Positions 24,355 to 31,802 of a stretch of 64,000 nucleotides of DNA are shown in pieces. This stretch comes from Planctomyces sp. GTDB taxonomy: Bacteria > Planctomycetota > Planctomycetia > Planctomycetales > Planctomycetaceae. A program made the translations under genes and the position numbers. Within the stretch, counting starts at the first letter, position 1. Each line of letters begins with the position of its first letter. The notes beneath the pieces are model-generated. The model was not told the origin of the DNA. It was given only the letters and a program-made list of their open reading frames with translations, and did no database searches. The stretch is from positions 62,001 through 126,000 of the forward strand of contig JAHBXW010000006.1 of NCBI GenBank assembly GCA_019636235.1, read 5' to 3'.

Positions 24355-24966
24355 ATGACGTCGGGCCCCCGTCGAGTTGCAGAGACCCGCTGCCCGTGGG
24401 CGAAGGGGGAGCTGGACGCGGCCTATCACGACCTGGAGTGGGGCGTCCCGGTCCACGATGACCGGCTGCTGTTCGAGTTCCTGATTCTGGAGGGCGCTCA
24501 GGCCGGATTGAGCTGGTCGACGATCCTCAAGAAGCGGGAGAACTACCGGCGGGCGTTCGATGGCTTCGACGTCCGGAAGATCGCGCGGTATGGGCCGCGC
24601 GATGAAGAACGGCTTCTGGCCGATCCGGGGATCGTCCGGAACCGGCTGAAGATCTCGTCGTCGATTTCGAACGCGCGGGCCTGCCTGGAAGTGCAGCGGG
24701 AGTTCGGTTCGCTGGATGCGTGCCTGTGGCGGTTCGTCGAGGGCCGTCCCCTGCAGAACGCGCGGCGCTCAATGGCGGACGTTCCCGCGCGGACGCCCGA
24801 ATCGGACGCCATGAGCAAGGACCTCAAACGCCGCGGGTTCCGGTTCGTCGGCAGCACGATCTGTTATGCATTCATGCAGGCGACCGGGATGGTCAACGAT
24901 CATCTCGTGAGCTGCTTCCGGCATGCGGAAGTTCAGCGGCCGTCGCCATCGAAGCGTCGCGGCTGA
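24355..24966 (+). CDS. tag: DNA-3-methyladenine glycosylase I
   Basis: A 203-residue base-excision repair enzyme that removes 3-methyladenine. The zinc ligands of Tag are visible: Cys in RCPWA, His in AYHDLEWG, and the C-terminal His and Cys in NDHLVSCFRH. The catalytic-pocket segment FEFLILEGAQAGLSWSTILKKR is complete. Its 3' end overlaps the convergent membrane-protein gene by 74 bp. Full length for the family, so the overlap is not due to a truncated neighbour. Confidence 0.95.
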   Translation: MTSGPRRVAETRCPWAKGELDAAYHDLEWGVPVHDDRLLFEFLILEGAQAGLSWSTILKKRENYRRAFDGFDVRKIARYGPRDEERLLADPGIVRNRLKISSSISNARACLEVQREFGSLDACLWRFVEGRPLQNARRSMADVPARTPESDAMSKDLKRRGFRFVGSTICYAFMQATGMVNDHLVSCFRHAEVQRPSPSKRRG

Positions 24967-26053
24967 GCCTGCTTGCAAAACCCTCGTCCGGAGCGGCGAA
25001 TTCGTCGTTGAACCGGCGGTTCGTCCGCCGCTTCCACAGAAATCCATCCAGGATGTAATGGGTGAGCTGCGGCACTCCGAGGAGCGGCGCCAGGACGCCC
25101 CCCGGATTTCCGACCGCCTGCCGAGTGAACAGGTGCTCGCGTTCCCGCCACACGCCCCGGTCCCACAGCAGTTCCTCGACGTAGGCCAGCAGCCACACGG
25201 TGCTGAGGAAGATGATGGCCGACGACCACACGGAACGCCCCTGGCCGGACGTCGACCGGGTCCAGTACAGGTACAGCAGGACCAGATACGGGATGCCGTG
25301 GATCAGGACGTTCGTGACCGTGAAGGCGAAGTCCGAGTTCAGGACGACGATGCCCAGGTACCACAACAGCGCCGTCGTCGCGACAACCAGATCCTTCCCC
25401 GGATTCCAGAACCGGAACCGGACGCCCCGGACGAGCGATCGGAGGAAGTACGCCGGCAGCAACCCGGCCCACAGCACGTCCGTGACGTCCGCCGCCCAGG
25501 CCGGCAGCGCGGCGAAATCCCCCGCGATGAGCCAGTCGAACCGCCGCGGCAGACTCGCATGCCAGCACGCCAGGGGATGCAGCGTCGCGATGTAGATCGT
25601 CGCCGCATCCAGCCGCCGACCCCATGTGTCCGTCTCCCCCGCGCGGGCGCGGTACAGCATCACCCAGCCGTACTGCTGGCGAATGAAGTGCAGCACCGCG
25701 AGGTACGCCAACAGCCGCCAGTACATCGCGGGGGATTCCGAATGCACGGCCCAGCCCAGGCCAAACGCCGCCAGCGGCACGCCGTAGTACAGGCCGGGGC
25801 GACGTCGAAGCTCGTCCCGGTCGAAGTAGACACGGAACCCGGTCGCGTACACATGCGCGACATCGACCAGCAGCACGCAGGCGATCCAGGTCCACTCGGG
25901 CGAGTCGCTGTGCAGAATGCCCAGTCGCCAGCCGATCGCCAACAACAGCAGCGACAGCGCCGCGCTGCCGCCAAACGTCCACAGGTCGATCGTCCGGGAA
26001 AACAGCCACGGACCGGCGGGCGCGGGGATCGCAGCGGGGGAGGACGCGGTCAT
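24893..26053 (-). CDS. polytopic membrane protein, last gene of the speD/DUF350 operon
   Basis: A 386-residue protein with about eight or nine hydrophobic helices, for example ALSLLLLAIGWRLG, LLVDVAHVYATGF and TALLWYLGIVVLN. Conserved-looking charged positions within or next to helices include DLWTFGG, FDRDEL, HFIRQQYGW, HGIPYLVLLYLYW and LTHYILDGFLWK. It overlaps the upstream FAD-enzyme gene by 4 bp (ATGA-type), indicating translational coupling. The 3' end overlaps tag on the opposite strand. No named family is recognised. The His/Asp/Tyr pattern could mean a membrane enzyme rather than a simple transporter, which is inference. Confidence 0.7.
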   Translation of the reverse strand: MTASSPAAIPAPAGPWLFSRTIDLWTFGGSAALSLLLLAIGWRLGILHSDSPEWTWIACVLLVDVAHVYATGFRVYFDRDELRRRPGLYYGVPLAAFGLGWAVHSESPAMYWRLLAYLAVLHFIRQQYGWVMLYRARAGETDTWGRRLDAATIYIATLHPLACWHASLPRRFDWLIAGDFAALPAWAADVTDVLWAGLLPAYFLRSLVRGVRFRFWNPGKDLVVATTALLWYLGIVVLNSDFAFTVTNVLIHGIPYLVLLYLYWTRSTSGQGRSVWSSAIIFLSTVWLLAYVEELLWDRGVWREREHLFTRQAVGNPGGVLAPLLGVPQLTHYILDGFLWKRRTNRRFNDEFAAPDEGFASRLSRDASMATAAELPHAGSSSRDDR

Positions 26054-27702
26054 CGCGCGGGCATCCCCAGCGAGGCAAGCACTTCCTCCGCCGCCCGAAC
26101 GCCGTGAAACTGCGCCTCCTCGAAGAGCGGAATGCCGCTGAGATCAGTTCCGGCGAAGTGGACGCCGCGCCAGGGCCGGGCCGCGAGCTCCCGGGCGGCG
26201 CCTGTCAGGAACCCGGGGCGGGCGCGGATCATCGCATGACCCCAGCGCATCACGTCCAGCCGCGAAATCCTCCCAGCCAGTCCGGGATGCGCGGGCGCCA
26301 GGTCCTCCAGCACGCGCTGCGCCGCCGCTTCCCAGGTCAGTTCCATCAGCCACTGCCGCGCGGCGTGCGGACGTTCATCGCAGAGCGGCTGATACCAGGT
26401 CCAGACCGTCGGACCGTGATCGCGGCCGGACTGATGCGTCGCGACCACATAGCCCAGCGATCGGCTGTCGTACAGGACGTTGTCCCAGGCGGCTTCGAAG
26501 CCCTTCGACGGCGGGCGATCTTTCAAATGAATGTTCGCGACGAGCCACGACCCGTACTCGAACTCGGCGCACGCGGCCTTCCGGTCCTCGGGCAGTTCGG
26601 CCAACAGCCGCGGCACGAGGAACTGCGGCGTCGCGAGAATCACGGACCGCGCGGCGAACCTCAGCGGCGTGCCGTCCGCCGCGGACAACGCCGTCACGGA
26701 AATCGGCCCCGCGGAATCCTCCGGCCCGGGATTGACGCGCATCACAGCGACCCCCGTTCGCAACCGATCTCCCAGTTCGCCCGCCACGTGCCGCACAATC
26801 CGGCCCAGCCCCTCCGGCCATGTCAGCAGCGGCTGCGAATCCTGACCCGCCTCGCGAACCCGCGCGGCGAAATAGAAGCAGCCCGCCCAGGCGCTGGTCT
26901 GCTCCAGCGCGGACCCGTAGTCGTCCCGGCAACTGTAGTCGACCAGCCAGCGCAACCGCGGCGAGGTGAAGCCCCGCTGATCCATCCACTCGGCCATCGA
27001 GATGCGGTCCAGGTCGCGGACGGCGGGATCCTCGGACGACCGGGACGTCGGCACGGCGAACGCCGGACGGCCCGCGGAATCCCGCAAGGCGACCCAGCGT
27101 TCGATCTCAGTTCGAAACGCCGCGAGCTGGCGGAGGTCCTCCACCGACGCGCCCTCCTCGGGATACAGGCCGGAATGCCATTCGCCGCCCAGATACAGGC
27201 GTTCCTCCGGTTCGCGGCAGAGATGCTGTTCGGCGAAGACCGGCGTGCCGTCGGGCCCGACCGATTCGATCGCGCCGATCTCCGCCAGCAGCTCGATGAG
27301 GTCGTGGTTTTCGGGGAACGGCGTGGGCACGTAATGCGCGCCCCACGGGTAGGCCGTGACGGAGGATTCGCCGAACGTGGCCGTGCCGCCCGGGCGGGGC
27401 TCCAGCTCAAGGACGAGAATCCGCTCGACGCCGCGTCGCAGCAACCGCCAGGCGGCCGACAGTCCGGCCAGCCCGCCGCCCACGATCAGGACATCCGTCT
27501 CGGTCACATCCGCAGGAGGGGTGCTCAACGACGACGGCGACCGCAGGCGATGGCCCAGCTCCAGCGACGCGCCGACGATCTCCCCCTCGAACGGCAACGG
27601 CCGCTGGCAGCCCGCGAGCGCCCCGGCCAGCGGCGCCGCCGCCAGCGACTGCAGCCAGCGTCTGCGGCTGAGGCCGGTTCGAGGATCGTGATCGCCGGGC
27701 AT
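26050..27702 (-). CDS. FAD-dependent amine-oxidase-like enzyme, Tat lipoprotein
   Basis: A 550-residue protein. The N-terminus has a twin-arginine motif (SRRRWLQSL) and a lipobox (LAGALAGC), suggesting export of a folded, FAD-loaded lipoprotein. The dinucleotide-binding GGGLAGLSAAWRL lies near residue 73, with the acidic strand end VLELEPRPGG. The C-terminal FAD motif (HFAGTDLSGIPLFEEAQ) is also present. The fold is that of amine oxidases/phytoene-desaturase-type flavoenzymes. Given its neighbours, an amine or polyamine-like substrate is plausible. It lies 6 bp downstream of the spermidine-synthase-like gene and overlaps the next gene by 4 bp. Confidence 0.83.
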   Translation of the reverse strand: MPGDHDPRTGLSRRRWLQSLAAAPLAGALAGCQRPLPFEGEIVGASLELGHRLRSPSSLSTPPADVTETDVLIVGGGLAGLSAAWRLLRRGVERILVLELEPRPGGTATFGESSVTAYPWGAHYVPTPFPENHDLIELLAEIGAIESVGPDGTPVFAEQHLCREPEERLYLGGEWHSGLYPEEGASVEDLRQLAAFRTEIERWVALRDSAGRPAFAVPTSRSSEDPAVRDLDRISMAEWMDQRGFTSPRLRWLVDYSCRDDYGSALEQTSAWAGCFYFAARVREAGQDSQPLLTWPEGLGRIVRHVAGELGDRLRTGVAVMRVNPGPEDSAGPISVTALSAADGTPLRFAARSVILATPQFLVPRLLAELPEDRKAACAEFEYGSWLVANIHLKDRPPSKGFEAAWDNVLYDSRSLGYVVATHQSGRDHGPTVWTWYQPLCDERPHAARQWLMELTWEAAAQRVLEDLAPAHPGLAGRISRLDVMRWGHAMIRARPGFLTGAARELAARPWRGVHFAGTDLSGIPLFEEAQFHGVRAAEEVLASLGMPAR

Positions 27703-27708
27703 GACCGT

Positions 27709-29256
27709 TCAGTTCCAGCGCTTCCATTCGGCTTCGTAGTAGCGCACCAGCGCCTGACTGTCGAGCCGGTTGATGTCGACGGTTTGCGGCGCCAGGTCGA
27801 CAGGCAATGCGAACAGGTCGCGCAGCGCCCCGTCGTTCAAGAACCGCAGTTGCGGCGCGACTTCGGCGGGAACGACGCCAGGAGGATCGCGCGGCTCCCG
27901 TGAAGCCAGCGCGTAGCCCCACACGCCGAACGACGGCACCGCCGCCTGATAGGGAGCGACATGCAGCCCCGTGCTCTCCAAGGTTCGGATGATGCACCAG
28001 TATGACTGCGGGGCGGTCAGCGGCGACGTGCATTGAATGGCCACGACCGCGCCGGGCGCCATCCGCTTCTGCAGCAGGTGGTAGAACCGCGAGGTGTAGA
28101 GCTTGCCCAGCGAGTAGCTGTTGGGATCGGGGAAATCGATGAGGATGACGTCGAACTCGTCGCGGGCGGCGGCTGCGCCCGAATGCTGCTGGGGGTCGAC
28201 CCACAGGAAGGCGTCCGCGTTGAACACCGTCACGCGGGGGTCGCGAAGGCTGCCGCCGTTCAGCTCCCGGAGCGGCTCGAAGTTCTCGGCCAGCCCCGTC
28301 ATGGCCGGGTCGAGATCGACCAGCGTGACGGCCTCCACGTCCGAGTAGCGGAGAACCTCGCGGAGCGCGAGGCCGTCCCCGCCCCCCAGGATCAGCACCC
28401 GCCGGGCCGCGCCATGGGCGGCGAACGCCGGATGCGCCAGGGCCTCGTGATAGCGGTACTCGTCCGCCGAATTGAACTGCAGATGTCCGTTCAGATAGAG
28501 CTGGAAATGGTTCGTGCTGCGGGTCACGACGATCCGCTGATAAGAGGTCGTTTCGGCATAGACGACCGGGTGCGGGAAGAGTTCGTCCTCGGCGAGCGAC
28601 GTCAGCGAGTCGGCTTTGATGAGGCCGATCGTCAACAGCACAACGGCCGCCGCGCCGCGCAGCCGCAGCCCCGCCAGTCCGCGCTCGCGGAGCAGCGGCC
28701 GCAGCAGCCACGTCCCCCACAACCCCACCGCCGCGTTCAGCAGGCCGAACGTCAACGACGTGCGCACCAGCCCCAGCCGCGGCACGAACAGCATCGGGAA
28801 CAGCAGCGCTGCGAGGAGCGCGCCGATGTAGTCGAACGCCAGCACTCGCGAAACCAGTTCCTCAAAGTCCAGGTGCTCTTTGAGAATCCGCATCAGCAGC
28901 GGCAGCTCCAGGCCGACCAGCACGCCGATCAGAAACACGACCAGAAACAGGATCGCCCGGAAGGCCGCCAGGTGCGCGAAGCTCAGAAACAGCAGCGGCG
29001 CGGAGAAGCCCCCCAGAATCGCGACGGCGAACTCGACCTCAATGAAGCTGCGGGCCAGAGCGTCCGTCACGAACCGCGACAGCCAGGCTCCGACCCCCAG
29101 CGCGAACAGGTACACGCCGATGATCAGCGAGAACTGCGTCACTGAATCGCCGAGCACATAACTGGCCAGCGTGCCGGCCAGCAGTTCGTAGATCAGTCCG
29201 CAGGTCGCGATGACCAGCACGTTGAGGAACAGCAGCCACAGCGGCGTGCGGTGCAT
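27709..29256 (-). CDS. membrane-anchored spermidine-synthase-like protein
   Basis: A 515-residue protein from ATG 29256. The N-terminal half has about seven membrane helices. The C-terminal half (about 215-440) is a class I methyltransferase-fold aminopropyltransferase-like domain: [28 protein letters not shown] (SAM-type loop), the acidic DLDPAM, and [15 protein letters not shown] where true spermidine synthases have a D-x-x-DP motif. The active-site acids are largely preserved, so it could transfer an aminopropyl group from decarboxylated SAM. Fusion to membrane helices is known in a subset of this family. It is in the same unit as speD, DUF4178 and DUF350. Confidence 0.88.
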
Positions 29257-29310: not shown

Positions 29311-29571
29311 TCAGCCGAGGATCGCCGCGGCGATGATGATCGCCACGCCCAGCAGCACCGAGCCCATGACGATCGCCACCGCCGTGTTGTGATCCTCCTC
29401 GATCTCATGATGCACGGAAAACGGCGCGAAGCGGACCATCAGCCACAGCGTCAGCAGCAGCACGATGATCCCCACCGCGGAGAACACCAGCGCCGCCACC
29501 AGGTGATCCAGGAACACATTGCGGGCCACGGCCGGCTCGGCCGCCTGAAAGGCCAGAATCGCGGAATGCAC
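29311..29571 (-). CDS. DUF350 family small membrane protein
   Basis: An 86-residue protein with two clear membrane helices, LVAALVFSAVGIIVLLLTLWLMV and TAVAIVMGSVLLGVAIIIAAAILG, separated by a charged loop (HHEIEEDHN). Its GTG start at 29571 shares a base with the TAG stop of the upstream 52-residue gene and is preceded by GGAGGAGG on the minus strand at suitable spacing. It lies 54 bp upstream of the spermidine-synthase-like gene. DUF350 proteins lack a known function; the tight coupling here argues for a shared membrane complex. Confidence 0.85.
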   Translation of the reverse strand: MHSAILAFQAAEPAVARNVFLDHLVAALVFSAVGIIVLLLTLWLMVRFAPFSVHHEIEEDHNTAVAIVMGSVLLGVAIIIAAAILG

Positions 29572-29729
29572 TATTTGCCTCCTCCCCAGGATCCGCCGGA
29601 ACTGCGCAGGCTGCCGAACGCCGCCGCCGCGCCGATGTCCGGCGCCTTCCACCCGAACACGCAGGCCAGCAGGTATCCGGAACAGATGGCGCTCCCCAGC
29701 GCCAGATAAAACTTCCGCATCAAGTTCAT
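29571..29729 (-). CDS. 52-residue membrane peptide with glycine-rich C-terminus
   Basis: ATG 29729 to TAG 29571-29573, with AGGAGA upstream at about 5-nt spacing. The N-terminus MNLMRKFYLAL is basic. One hydrophobic helix (about residues 9-26, ALGSAICSGYLLACVFGW) follows. The C-terminal part is small-residue-rich and ends SSGGSWGGGK. It overlaps the DUF350 start by one base, so translation is coupled. Too short for most gene callers. The glycine-rich end with a terminal Lys could be a target or structural element of the surrounding enzymes; that is speculation. I know no named family for it. Confidence 0.7.
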   Translation of the reverse strand: MNLMRKFYLALGSAICSGYLLACVFGWKAPDIGAAAAFGSLRSSGGSWGGGK

Positions 29730-29784: not shown

Positions 29785-31404
29785 TCACTGGTGGGCGGGA
29801 TACGGGGAATAGTCGCTGTTCGACCAGCGCTGCACCTCGAAGCTCGATCGATGCAGCAGCGCCCCGATCGGGATCAGCGACACGCCCAGGAATGCGTACA
29901 ACAGCAGCCAGCCGTCCGGCGGACTGCGGAACAGACCCGTCAGGGCGACGCCGTAAATCCCCGCCAGCGTCGCCCCGAACCACAGCCAGTGCAACAGCAT
30001 CCGGCCGATCTCCGGCGGCGGCTGATTCGGCGCGATCGACCAGGGCCGCGGGAGTTCCTTGATCCGGAACGCCTGCTCGAGTTCCTCGTGCCGGACGTAG
30101 CGGCCCAGGGAGACGTTCAACTCCTCCGACGAGCCCGTCGAGGAGCGCTCGAACGACAGCATCAGCGGGGGCCGGACGTAGTCGCTGGTCTCGACTTTCT
30201 CGCCGATTTCCACCTTCCAGTAGAACTCGCCGACGACGTAGCTGACGTAGGCCGTCCCCTTCTGAAACAGGGCGAATTCCTCGTGGCCGTAGTCCGCCGT
30301 CATGCCCCGGGATTTCGCCTCGCCCGGAGACAGCGGCGTCACGAAGCTCCAGTGCCCCTCGCTGTTCACCAGCCAGCGAAACCCGCGGTCGCGGTTGTAC
30401 AACAGGTACTCCGTCCAGCGGTATTTCGTCCCTTCGTGAACGACGTACCGCTCCATGAAGCCGATGATCGTCCAGGACAACTCGCCGAACGTCCCCGTCG
30501 ACCCCAGCGGAATCATCGGCCGGACGTGTTTGCCCTTGAGCGTCAGCAGATACTTCAGCGCCCCGTGATCGCAATCCAGAAGGGCCTTGCAACTGGGGCA
30601 GGCCACGCGCTCGGTGACGTCCGGCGCGACGAGCGTCAGCGGTCCGCCGCACTGCGGGCAATTCACCCGCGTCGTCGTCGTCCGCGGAACGGCGATCTCC
30701 TCGGCGTTCGGGAGCGTGATCTCCAGCTCGGACGGGGTCGTCTCGCGCCCCAGCGACACGCCCGTCGCCGCCGAGGAACTCACCGTCGCCACGTTTCCGC
30801 CGCTGTCGAGTTCCAGCGGCCGGCCTGTGGCCCGTCGTCCGGCATCGAATTCAATTGTGCCGAACAGGCCCCGCGCGCCGGTGATGTCCGCGAAGCGATG
30901 CGGCGCGCCGGGCTCGAACCGCCACGGGATTTCCCCTTCCGCCGAGGCGGCCGTGGCGACCCCCTTTTCGGTGACCGTCGCCGTCCCCAGCTGGCGGCCC
31001 AGGTCGAACTCAGCGCCCATCTGCAGCGAGTCAAAGTCGACGTCCCGGCCGAGAATCTTTGCCGGCCTGGAGAACAGCAGGTAGAAGCGGCCCTGCGCTT
31101 CGGCCAGCCAGCCCACGCGATCGGAAAAGGCGAGATACCACTCGTCCCACACGCCGCCCGCCGGATGCCGGTACTGGACGCGGCCGACGATCTCGAACTT
31201 CCGCCCCTTGAACTTTCCGGTCAGGCCGAGCTGCAGCCCGGATCGCGTCGCGAGGAGGTCGGCCACGCGGCCGACTTCGGAGATCTGCTTGTTCGTGCGG
31301 GCGACGGCCGTCCGACAGAACTCGCAGACGGTGACCAGCGAGTCGCTTGAGCGGAACTCGACGGGGCCGCCGCAGGACGGGCAGTTCGCGGCGAACGTCT
31401 TCAT
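29785..31404 (-). CDS. DUF4178 protein with two zinc ribbons and membrane anchor
   Basis: A 539-residue protein from ATG 31404, overlapping the speD stop by 4 bp. Two CxxC...CxxC zinc ribbons are visible: C8/C11/C27/C30 and C249/C252/C269/C272. Each is followed by a beta-rich DUF4178 unit (GRVQYRH...DEWYLAFSD and FMERYVVHEG...WTEYLLYNRD), so the domain is duplicated. The C-terminus has two membrane helices (about 470-490 and 499-518). DUF4178 is known to occur beside AdoMet decarboxylase, spermidine synthase-like and DUF350 genes in many bacteria. Biochemical role unknown. Confidence 0.85.
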   Translation of the reverse strand: MKTFAANCPSCGGPVEFRSSDSLVTVCEFCRTAVARTNKQISEVGRVADLLATRSGLQLGLTGKFKGRKFEIVGRVQYRHPAGGVWDEWYLAFSDRVGWLAEAQGRFYLLFSRPAKILGRDVDFDSLQMGAEFDLGRQLGTATVTEKGVATAASAEGEIPWRFEPGAPHRFADITGARGLFGTIEFDAGRRATGRPLELDSGGNVATVSSSAATGVSLGRETTPSELEITLPNAEEIAVPRTTTTRVNCPQCGGPLTLVAPDVTERVACPSCKALLDCDHGALKYLLTLKGKHVRPMIPLGSTGTFGELSWTIIGFMERYVVHEGTKYRWTEYLLYNRDRGFRWLVNSEGHWSFVTPLSPGEAKSRGMTADYGHEEFALFQKGTAYVSYVVGEFYWKVEIGEKVETSDYVRPPLMLSFERSSTGSSEELNVSLGRYVRHEELEQAFRIKELPRPWSIAPNQPPPEIGRMLLHWLWFGATLAGIYGVALTGLFRSPPDGWLLLYAFLGVSLIPIGALLHRSSFEVQRWSNSDYSPYPAHQ

Positions 31405-31802
31405 GGCCGGGCCTCCAGCGTGCGGAGGGCCCGTTCCGACAACTCCAGAGCCCGCCGGCCGCGCGGCAGTTCCCGCACCGCGATCTCCGTTGCGCCGAAC
31501 GCCGCGCCCAGCATATCCAGCCAGTCGGGCGGCGTATGCGGCCGACAGCAGTACACGTTCAGCGCGACCAGCCCGTATTCCGGAAACGTGTGGACCGAAA
31601 GGTGCGATTCGCTGAGCAGATACAGCGCCGTGACCCCTCCGGGTGCAGGAAACGCCCGGAATTGCGGATGCCCGACGACATGCAGGCCCATGGCGCGGAT
31701 GATGGCCTCGCAGCAGTCTTCGATGGGCGCAGGATCGGACAGCCGGGCGGGGTCGCAACCGGCGGCGTCGACAATCCATTCGGCGCCGGAGTCGGGAATC
31801 AT
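31401..31802 (-). CDS. speD: S-adenosylmethionine decarboxylase (prokaryotic class)
   Basis: A 133-residue pyruvoyl enzyme that decarboxylates SAM to give the aminopropyl donor for polyamine synthesis. The self-cleavage motif is SESHLSVHTFPE: Ser66 would become the pyruvoyl group. His71 (five residues on) and Cys86 (twenty on) correspond in spacing to the catalytic His and Cys of the bacterial/archaeal enzyme. The short N-terminal region is normal for the family. It is the first gene of the minus-strand operon and overlaps DUF4178 by 4 bp. The 224-bp region to the next, divergent gene should hold its promoter. Confidence 0.9.
   Translation of the reverse strand: MIPDSGAEWIVDAAGCDPARLSDPAPIEDCCEAIIRAMGLHVVGHPQFRAFPAPGGVTALYLLSESHLSVHTFPEYGLVALNVYCCRPHTPPDWLDMLGAAFGATEIAVRELPRGRRALELSERALRTLEARP

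Follow-up and report, generated by a model that had tools for sequence, protein, structure and literature searches.

The window analysed here, a 64,000-nucleotide stretch of a Planctomyces sp. genome, carries on its minus strand an operon in which speD, a DUF4178 gene, a short open reading frame (ORF) that we call the tail gene, a DUF350 gene, a seven-transmembrane (7-TM) SpeE, an FAD amine oxidase and a hydrophobic protein follow one another (Table 1). The gene for the hydrophobic protein occupies the same place in the related loci L077, L087, L095, L097, L099, L103, L109, L110 and L119. A Pfam search of the operon proteins returned no ATP-grasp ligase of the GSP-synthetase-like type.

Table 1. 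Features of the operon, in order of transcription, with their positions in the window.
Feature	Position	Strand	Evidence
speD, S-adenosylmethionine decarboxylase, cleavage region SESHLSVHTFPE	31401..31802	(-)	PF02675, 7.9e-27
DUF4178 protein, zinc ribbons and two C-terminal hydrophobic helices	29785..31404	(-)	PF13785, 2e-31
52-aa tail gene (52 codons)	29571..29729	(-)	ORF, Shine-Dalgarno site, same-position homologues, purifying selection in relatives
C-terminal Lys codon AAA of the tail gene	29574..29576	(-)	Lys last in 137/137 SpeE-type loci
DUF350, 2-TM form, GTG start overlapping the tail-gene TAG	29311..29571	(-)	PF03994, 3.6e-14
Membrane-fused aminopropyltransferase (7-TM + SpeE domain)	27709..29256	(-)	Pfam, motifs, structure model
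FAD amine oxidase, Tat signal and lipobox (SRRRWLQSLAAAPLAGALAGC)	26050..27702	(-)	PF01593, 1.4e-21
386-aa hydrophobic protein, final operon gene in relatives	24893..26053	(-)	No Pfam family above cut-off, no NCBIfam family

The tail gene encodes the 52-residue protein MNLMRKFYLALGSAICSGYLLACVFGWKAPDIGAAAAFGSLRSSGGSWGGGK, from an ATG at 29729 to a TAG at 29573-29571 (minus strand). The preliminary description had pointed to a start codon with a good ribosome-binding site, one hydrophobic helix, a Gly-rich end and an overlap with DUF350, all of which were verified in the sequence. The ATG is preceded by TTTGAGGAGACATCG, in which AGGAGA lies at a 5-nt spacing, the single hydrophobic helix follows an RK pair and leads to SSGGSWGGGK at the C-terminus, and the TAG shares a base with the GTG of DUF350 (TAGTG). 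No model of Pfam or NCBIfam, both of which were searched, matches the protein; the DUF1190 model (PF06693) matches neither it nor the small, fused or larger relatives tested, and the DUF4247 Pfam model does not match the 52-aa protein either. The gene had also been regarded as overlooked and as one that most annotation pipelines would discard for its length. It does lack a family model, but a relative in Novosphingobium is already annotated as a 48-aa hypothetical protein (WP_193828724.1), so that the first statement needs qualification and the second is true only in part.

Because the window contains many spurious ORFs of similar size, the length of this reading frame alone does not exceed chance, but its conservation at the equivalent locus does. 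When 170 genomes from the same family were searched in six frames, homologues were found with E-values from 4e-11 to about 0.03, most of them located between DUF4178 and DUF350-SpeE and ending in GK. The wider survey covered more Planctomycetota and 80 loci from Acidobacteria, Myxococcales, Gemmatimonadetes, Proteobacteria, Elusimicrobia, Cytophagales/Chitinophaga and others; the gene order is the same, the small protein in the gap between DUF4178 and DUF350 is very variable and Lys is the last residue. Judged from omega among related small ORFs, mostly 0.1-0.3 and rising to as much as 0.75 in a few pairs, the tail ORF is under purifying selection. Homologues at equivalent loci and a codon change away from neutrality, by which the preliminary description had proposed to judge the gene, are both found. 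A spurious ORF overlapping its neighbour by chance could well be short and devoid of any Pfam or NCBIfam match, as this one is, but the same-place homologues across phyla and the low omega values refute this reading, whose probability we put close to nil. The tail protein is real, conserved and uncharacterised, and its function is strongly suggested by the sequence comparisons below.

The tails of the survey end in GK, in HK or, in Rhodobacterales-type loci, in VK or IK. A Gly-rich C-terminus, which the preliminary description had emphasized, is common but not essential, as illustrated by the Bacteroidota tail SPNGQQQRYHK. In beta-proteobacteria, the separate tail gene is absent, and the DUF4178 protein is instead extended by a hydrophobic helix and a tail, for example RSSGGSYGGYSSGGGHK. 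Where DUF350 is of the 8-TM form, the tail gene is larger or resembles that of a lipoprotein, and its product ends in GK. Fusions of DUF4178 with a C-terminal hydrophobic helix, a Gly/Ser tail and an HK end were observed in L169, L174, L178, L186, L192, L193, L197-L199, L202, L203, L213-L216, L220 and L290. Loci that seemed to be tail-less proved on inspection to carry HK or VK/IK tails, or DUF4178 fusions. A tblastn search for DUF350 in plasmids gave no match.

The only invariant residue of the tail is its terminal Lys. An ORF of membrane or lipoprotein-like character with Lys at its end, in the form of a small gene, a fusion to the DUF4178 C-terminus or a larger lipoprotein, is encoded in 137/137 loci with DUF350 and a membrane-fused SpeE (130 non-redundant by SpeE), a count in which several loci are close relatives and a single inherited change may be counted many times. 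Homology and shared operon descent account for part of this conservation. The script detected 134 of the 137 tails, and those of L206, L287 and L290 were recognized by eye. The same script run on the opposite strand found GK in 0/137, HK in 0/137 and any K in 13/137, and a GK end closes 0.6% of frames in the background. The final Lys is encoded by AAA in 73 cases and by AAG in 61, and all four Gly codons occur at the preceding position; these variable third positions indicate selection on the residue and not on the DNA.

In the window itself, the tail codons GGGGAGGAGGCAAA / GGGGAGGAGGC (29571-29590, minus strand) hold the Shine-Dalgarno sequence of DUF350 (GGAGGAGG precedes its GTG) and the Gly codons do double duty. 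A terminal GK could then be a by-product of this signal, read as GGAGGN AAA codons, and a Shine-Dalgarno-like motif does occur in the last five codons of 52/94 GK tails. However, 42/94 GK tails, 25/27 scored HK tails and all VK/IK tails have no such motif, the Gly codons vary, and tails that are fused or distant from DUF350 still end in K. The by-product explanation is largely refuted and very improbable; it was rejected for the set as a whole and holds as a double use in the window.

The last residue follows the type of enzyme encoded with DUF350. Since loci L124-L203 were chosen by SpeE similarity, the only enzyme-blind sample is that of the Pseudomonadota, in which 80 DUF350 loci were taken regardless of enzyme. 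A Lys-terminated tail is present there in 30/30 SpeE loci versus 0/31 loci with an ATP-grasp ligase (Fisher p=4e-18). Among ATP-grasp ligase-type DUF350 loci, a K end was found in 0/32, and the tails end in Gly or Ser. In two loci (L287 and L290), a DUF350 of the E. coli class with four TM helices is combined with SpeE and the tails end in HK, which indicates that the tail end depends on the enzyme rather than on the type of DUF350. When a K tail has no SpeE nearby (L215, L227, L236, L245 and L292), a long-frame SpeE is encoded elsewhere in the genome; L292 is a Gallionella locus and the SpeE of its genome lies in L184. The tested DUF350 loci that lack a K tail belong to genomes in which SpeE is absent, weak or of soluble size, and genome G641, whose only SpeE is of soluble size (302-aa frame), has a DUF350 locus without a K tail. 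The 52-aa protein belongs to the Lys-tail set: it has a hydrophobic helix, a short linker and Lys as its last residue, its gene lies close to DUF350, and its genome carries a membrane-size SpeE.

The main rival to the lysine as an aminopropyl acceptor is that the small protein has a structural role beside DUF350 and SpeE, the C-terminal Lys being a chemically unmodified binding or sorting signal. The tail gene indeed adjoins DUF350, often with translational overlap, the two nearly always co-occur, and the tail is fused to DUF4178 in beta-proteobacteria. Such an assembly subunit leaves unexplained why Gly/Ser ends accompany ATP-grasp ligases and Lys ends accompany SpeE, including where SpeE is found with an E. 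coli-class DUF350, and we regard it as unlikely, though worth keeping in view.

DUF350 is also found in other settings. In L252-L289, where it accompanies an ATP-grasp ligase, an RGGFG motif and Gly/Ser-rich ends are common to the DUF1190-like proteins, some of which were not caught by the DUF1190 search built in this analysis. Around the DUF350 genes of loci L235, L238, L244, L247-L250 and L293-L296 there is neither SpeE nor an ATP-grasp ligase nor a K tail; DUF350 has other roles as well.

The E. coli counterpart neighbourhood, yjfI-yjfC, encodes the DUF350 protein YjfL, the DUF1190 protein YjfM, which ends in GHWGG and matches PF06693 at 2.9e-17, and YjfC, annotated as peptide--spermidine ligase. 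YgiC and YjfC have peptide-spermidine ligase activity according to the citation of Pederick et al. 2023 in PMC12568646; on the strength of that citation and of the YjfC annotation, C-terminal polyamine attachment is likely in the YjfM/YgiB system. Both this system (YjfM/YgiB, YjfC/YgiC and YjfL) and the operon described here combine DUF350 and a polyamine enzyme with a membrane or lipoprotein-like protein that has a Gly/Ser-rich C-terminal tail. They differ in the tail end, HWGG in YjfM and GGGK here, in the enzyme, an ATP-grasp ligase (YjfC/YgiC) there and SpeD/SpeE here, and in the lack of a DUF1190 match for the 52-aa protein. A likeness also exists with the PspA/CesT-Tir/DUF350 operons containing the Ctha_1186 lipoprotein (PMC11237479), which share with ours the 7-TM SpeE fusion, DUF350, DUF4178 and a lipoprotein neighbour, but no PspA or CesT gene was identified in the operon. 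That paper describes operons with DUF350, DUF4178 and 7-TM SpeE and raises aminopropylation of other substrates as a possibility, none being named; the expressions C-terminal lysine, glycine-rich and small membrane protein are absent from its main text (PMC11237479).

The SpeE of the operon retains the GGGDG, DE, YHE and DFPDP motifs (DxPDP in general form), and its AlphaFold model (pLDDT 90.9) shows roughly seven membrane helices at the N-terminus together with a domain that, among PDB structures, matches aminopropyltransferases best. An altered acceptor loop (VPSFGxWGF versus the classical loop) was dropped as an argument, as thermospermine and Thermus enzymes differ there too. This protein is the sole Spermine_synth match in the genome, which also encodes enzymes of the ornithine/arginine-decarboxylase fold, so that SpeE might make ordinary spermidine. 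With its aminopropyltransferase fold it would then act as a conventional spermidine synthase, and a function of the Lys tail would be to sense or sequester polyamines or anionic lipids. Positive charge alone does not, however, require that the last residue be invariant and its end fixed. Moreover, work by Li et al. 2019 reportedly found that the fused membrane SpeE does not make spermidine or replace a spermidine synthase, and proposed another acceptor, which it is not known to have named. We hold the ordinary-synthase explanation to be improbable. The enzyme of that work is said to be of the same type, with SpeD and DUF350; the acceptor proposed here is the C-terminal Lys of the tail protein.

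The amine oxidase carries a twin-arginine (Tat) signal in 65/68 loci and therefore probably acts outside the membrane. A lipobox, present in the protein of the window, is often found in its relatives. The tail of a single-span protein with its N-terminus inside (N-in) is predicted to lie outside the membrane as well, on the same side as the oxidase. The flanking charges of 98 small tails (52 N-in versus 22 C-in) moderately favour this N-in/C-out topology, and the fusion of tails to DUF4178, a protein predicted to be intracellular (PMC11237479), would agree with it.

These observations make the terminal Lys the leading candidate for the target of the membrane-bound aminopropyltransferase. The preliminary description had suggested that this Lys could be a substrate of the surrounding chemistry; as far as aminopropylation is concerned, the suggestion receives strong comparative support, since the residue is invariant and tracks membrane SpeE as opposed to ATP-grasp ligase. 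We consider it somewhat more probable than an even bet that the Lys is the aminopropyl acceptor of SpeD and membrane SpeE, with the exported oxidase acting later. The 52-aa protein would be a membrane-anchored carrier tail, whose flexibility would allow the terminus to reach the active site of SpeE. SpeD would supply decarboxylated AdoMet (dcAdoMet), from which the 7-TM SpeE would move the aminopropyl group onto the epsilon-amine of the last Lys, with DUF350 as a putative membrane partner and DUF4178 as a putative cytosolic one. Lysine is a carboxylated cadaverine and closely mimics ordinary diamine acceptors. As the tail is predicted to be outside and dcAdoMet is inside, an ordering step has to be assumed: with a predicted N-in/C-out single span, aminopropylation would take place before or during export of the short tail. 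The Tat-exported oxidase could then act on aminopropyl-lysine outside the membrane, for example by forming an aldehyde or removing the mark. That the transfer takes place, when export occurs relative to it and what the oxidase does are all inferred from sequence. In the parallel E. coli-type system, a DUF1190 lipoprotein may serve the same purpose, with spermidine ligated to its C-terminal Gly.

In deoxyhypusine, a polyamine-derived group is also found on a lysine side chain, but the resemblance is one of outcome only: deoxyhypusine synthase transfers an aminobutyl group from spermidine to an internal Lys of the cytosolic protein eIF5A. No report of dcAdoMet-dependent protein aminopropylation was found in the literature searched, which comprised no preprints and few subscription papers. 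The chances are about even that aminopropylation of a C-terminal Lys from dcAdoMet, by SpeD and membrane SpeE on dedicated tails in many phyla and with processing by a Tat-exported oxidase, constitutes a previously undescribed post-translational modification.

The annotation thereby gains a widespread and uncharacterised set of small proteins for which there is no model. A single logic would connect two systems, a Lys end going with an aminopropyltransferase and a Gly end with a peptide-spermidine ligase. The terminal-Lys rule offers a concrete, testable candidate, a single residue, for the acceptor that the common membrane-fused SpeE proteins use in nature, and it applies to organisms from Planctomycetota to Pseudomonadota.
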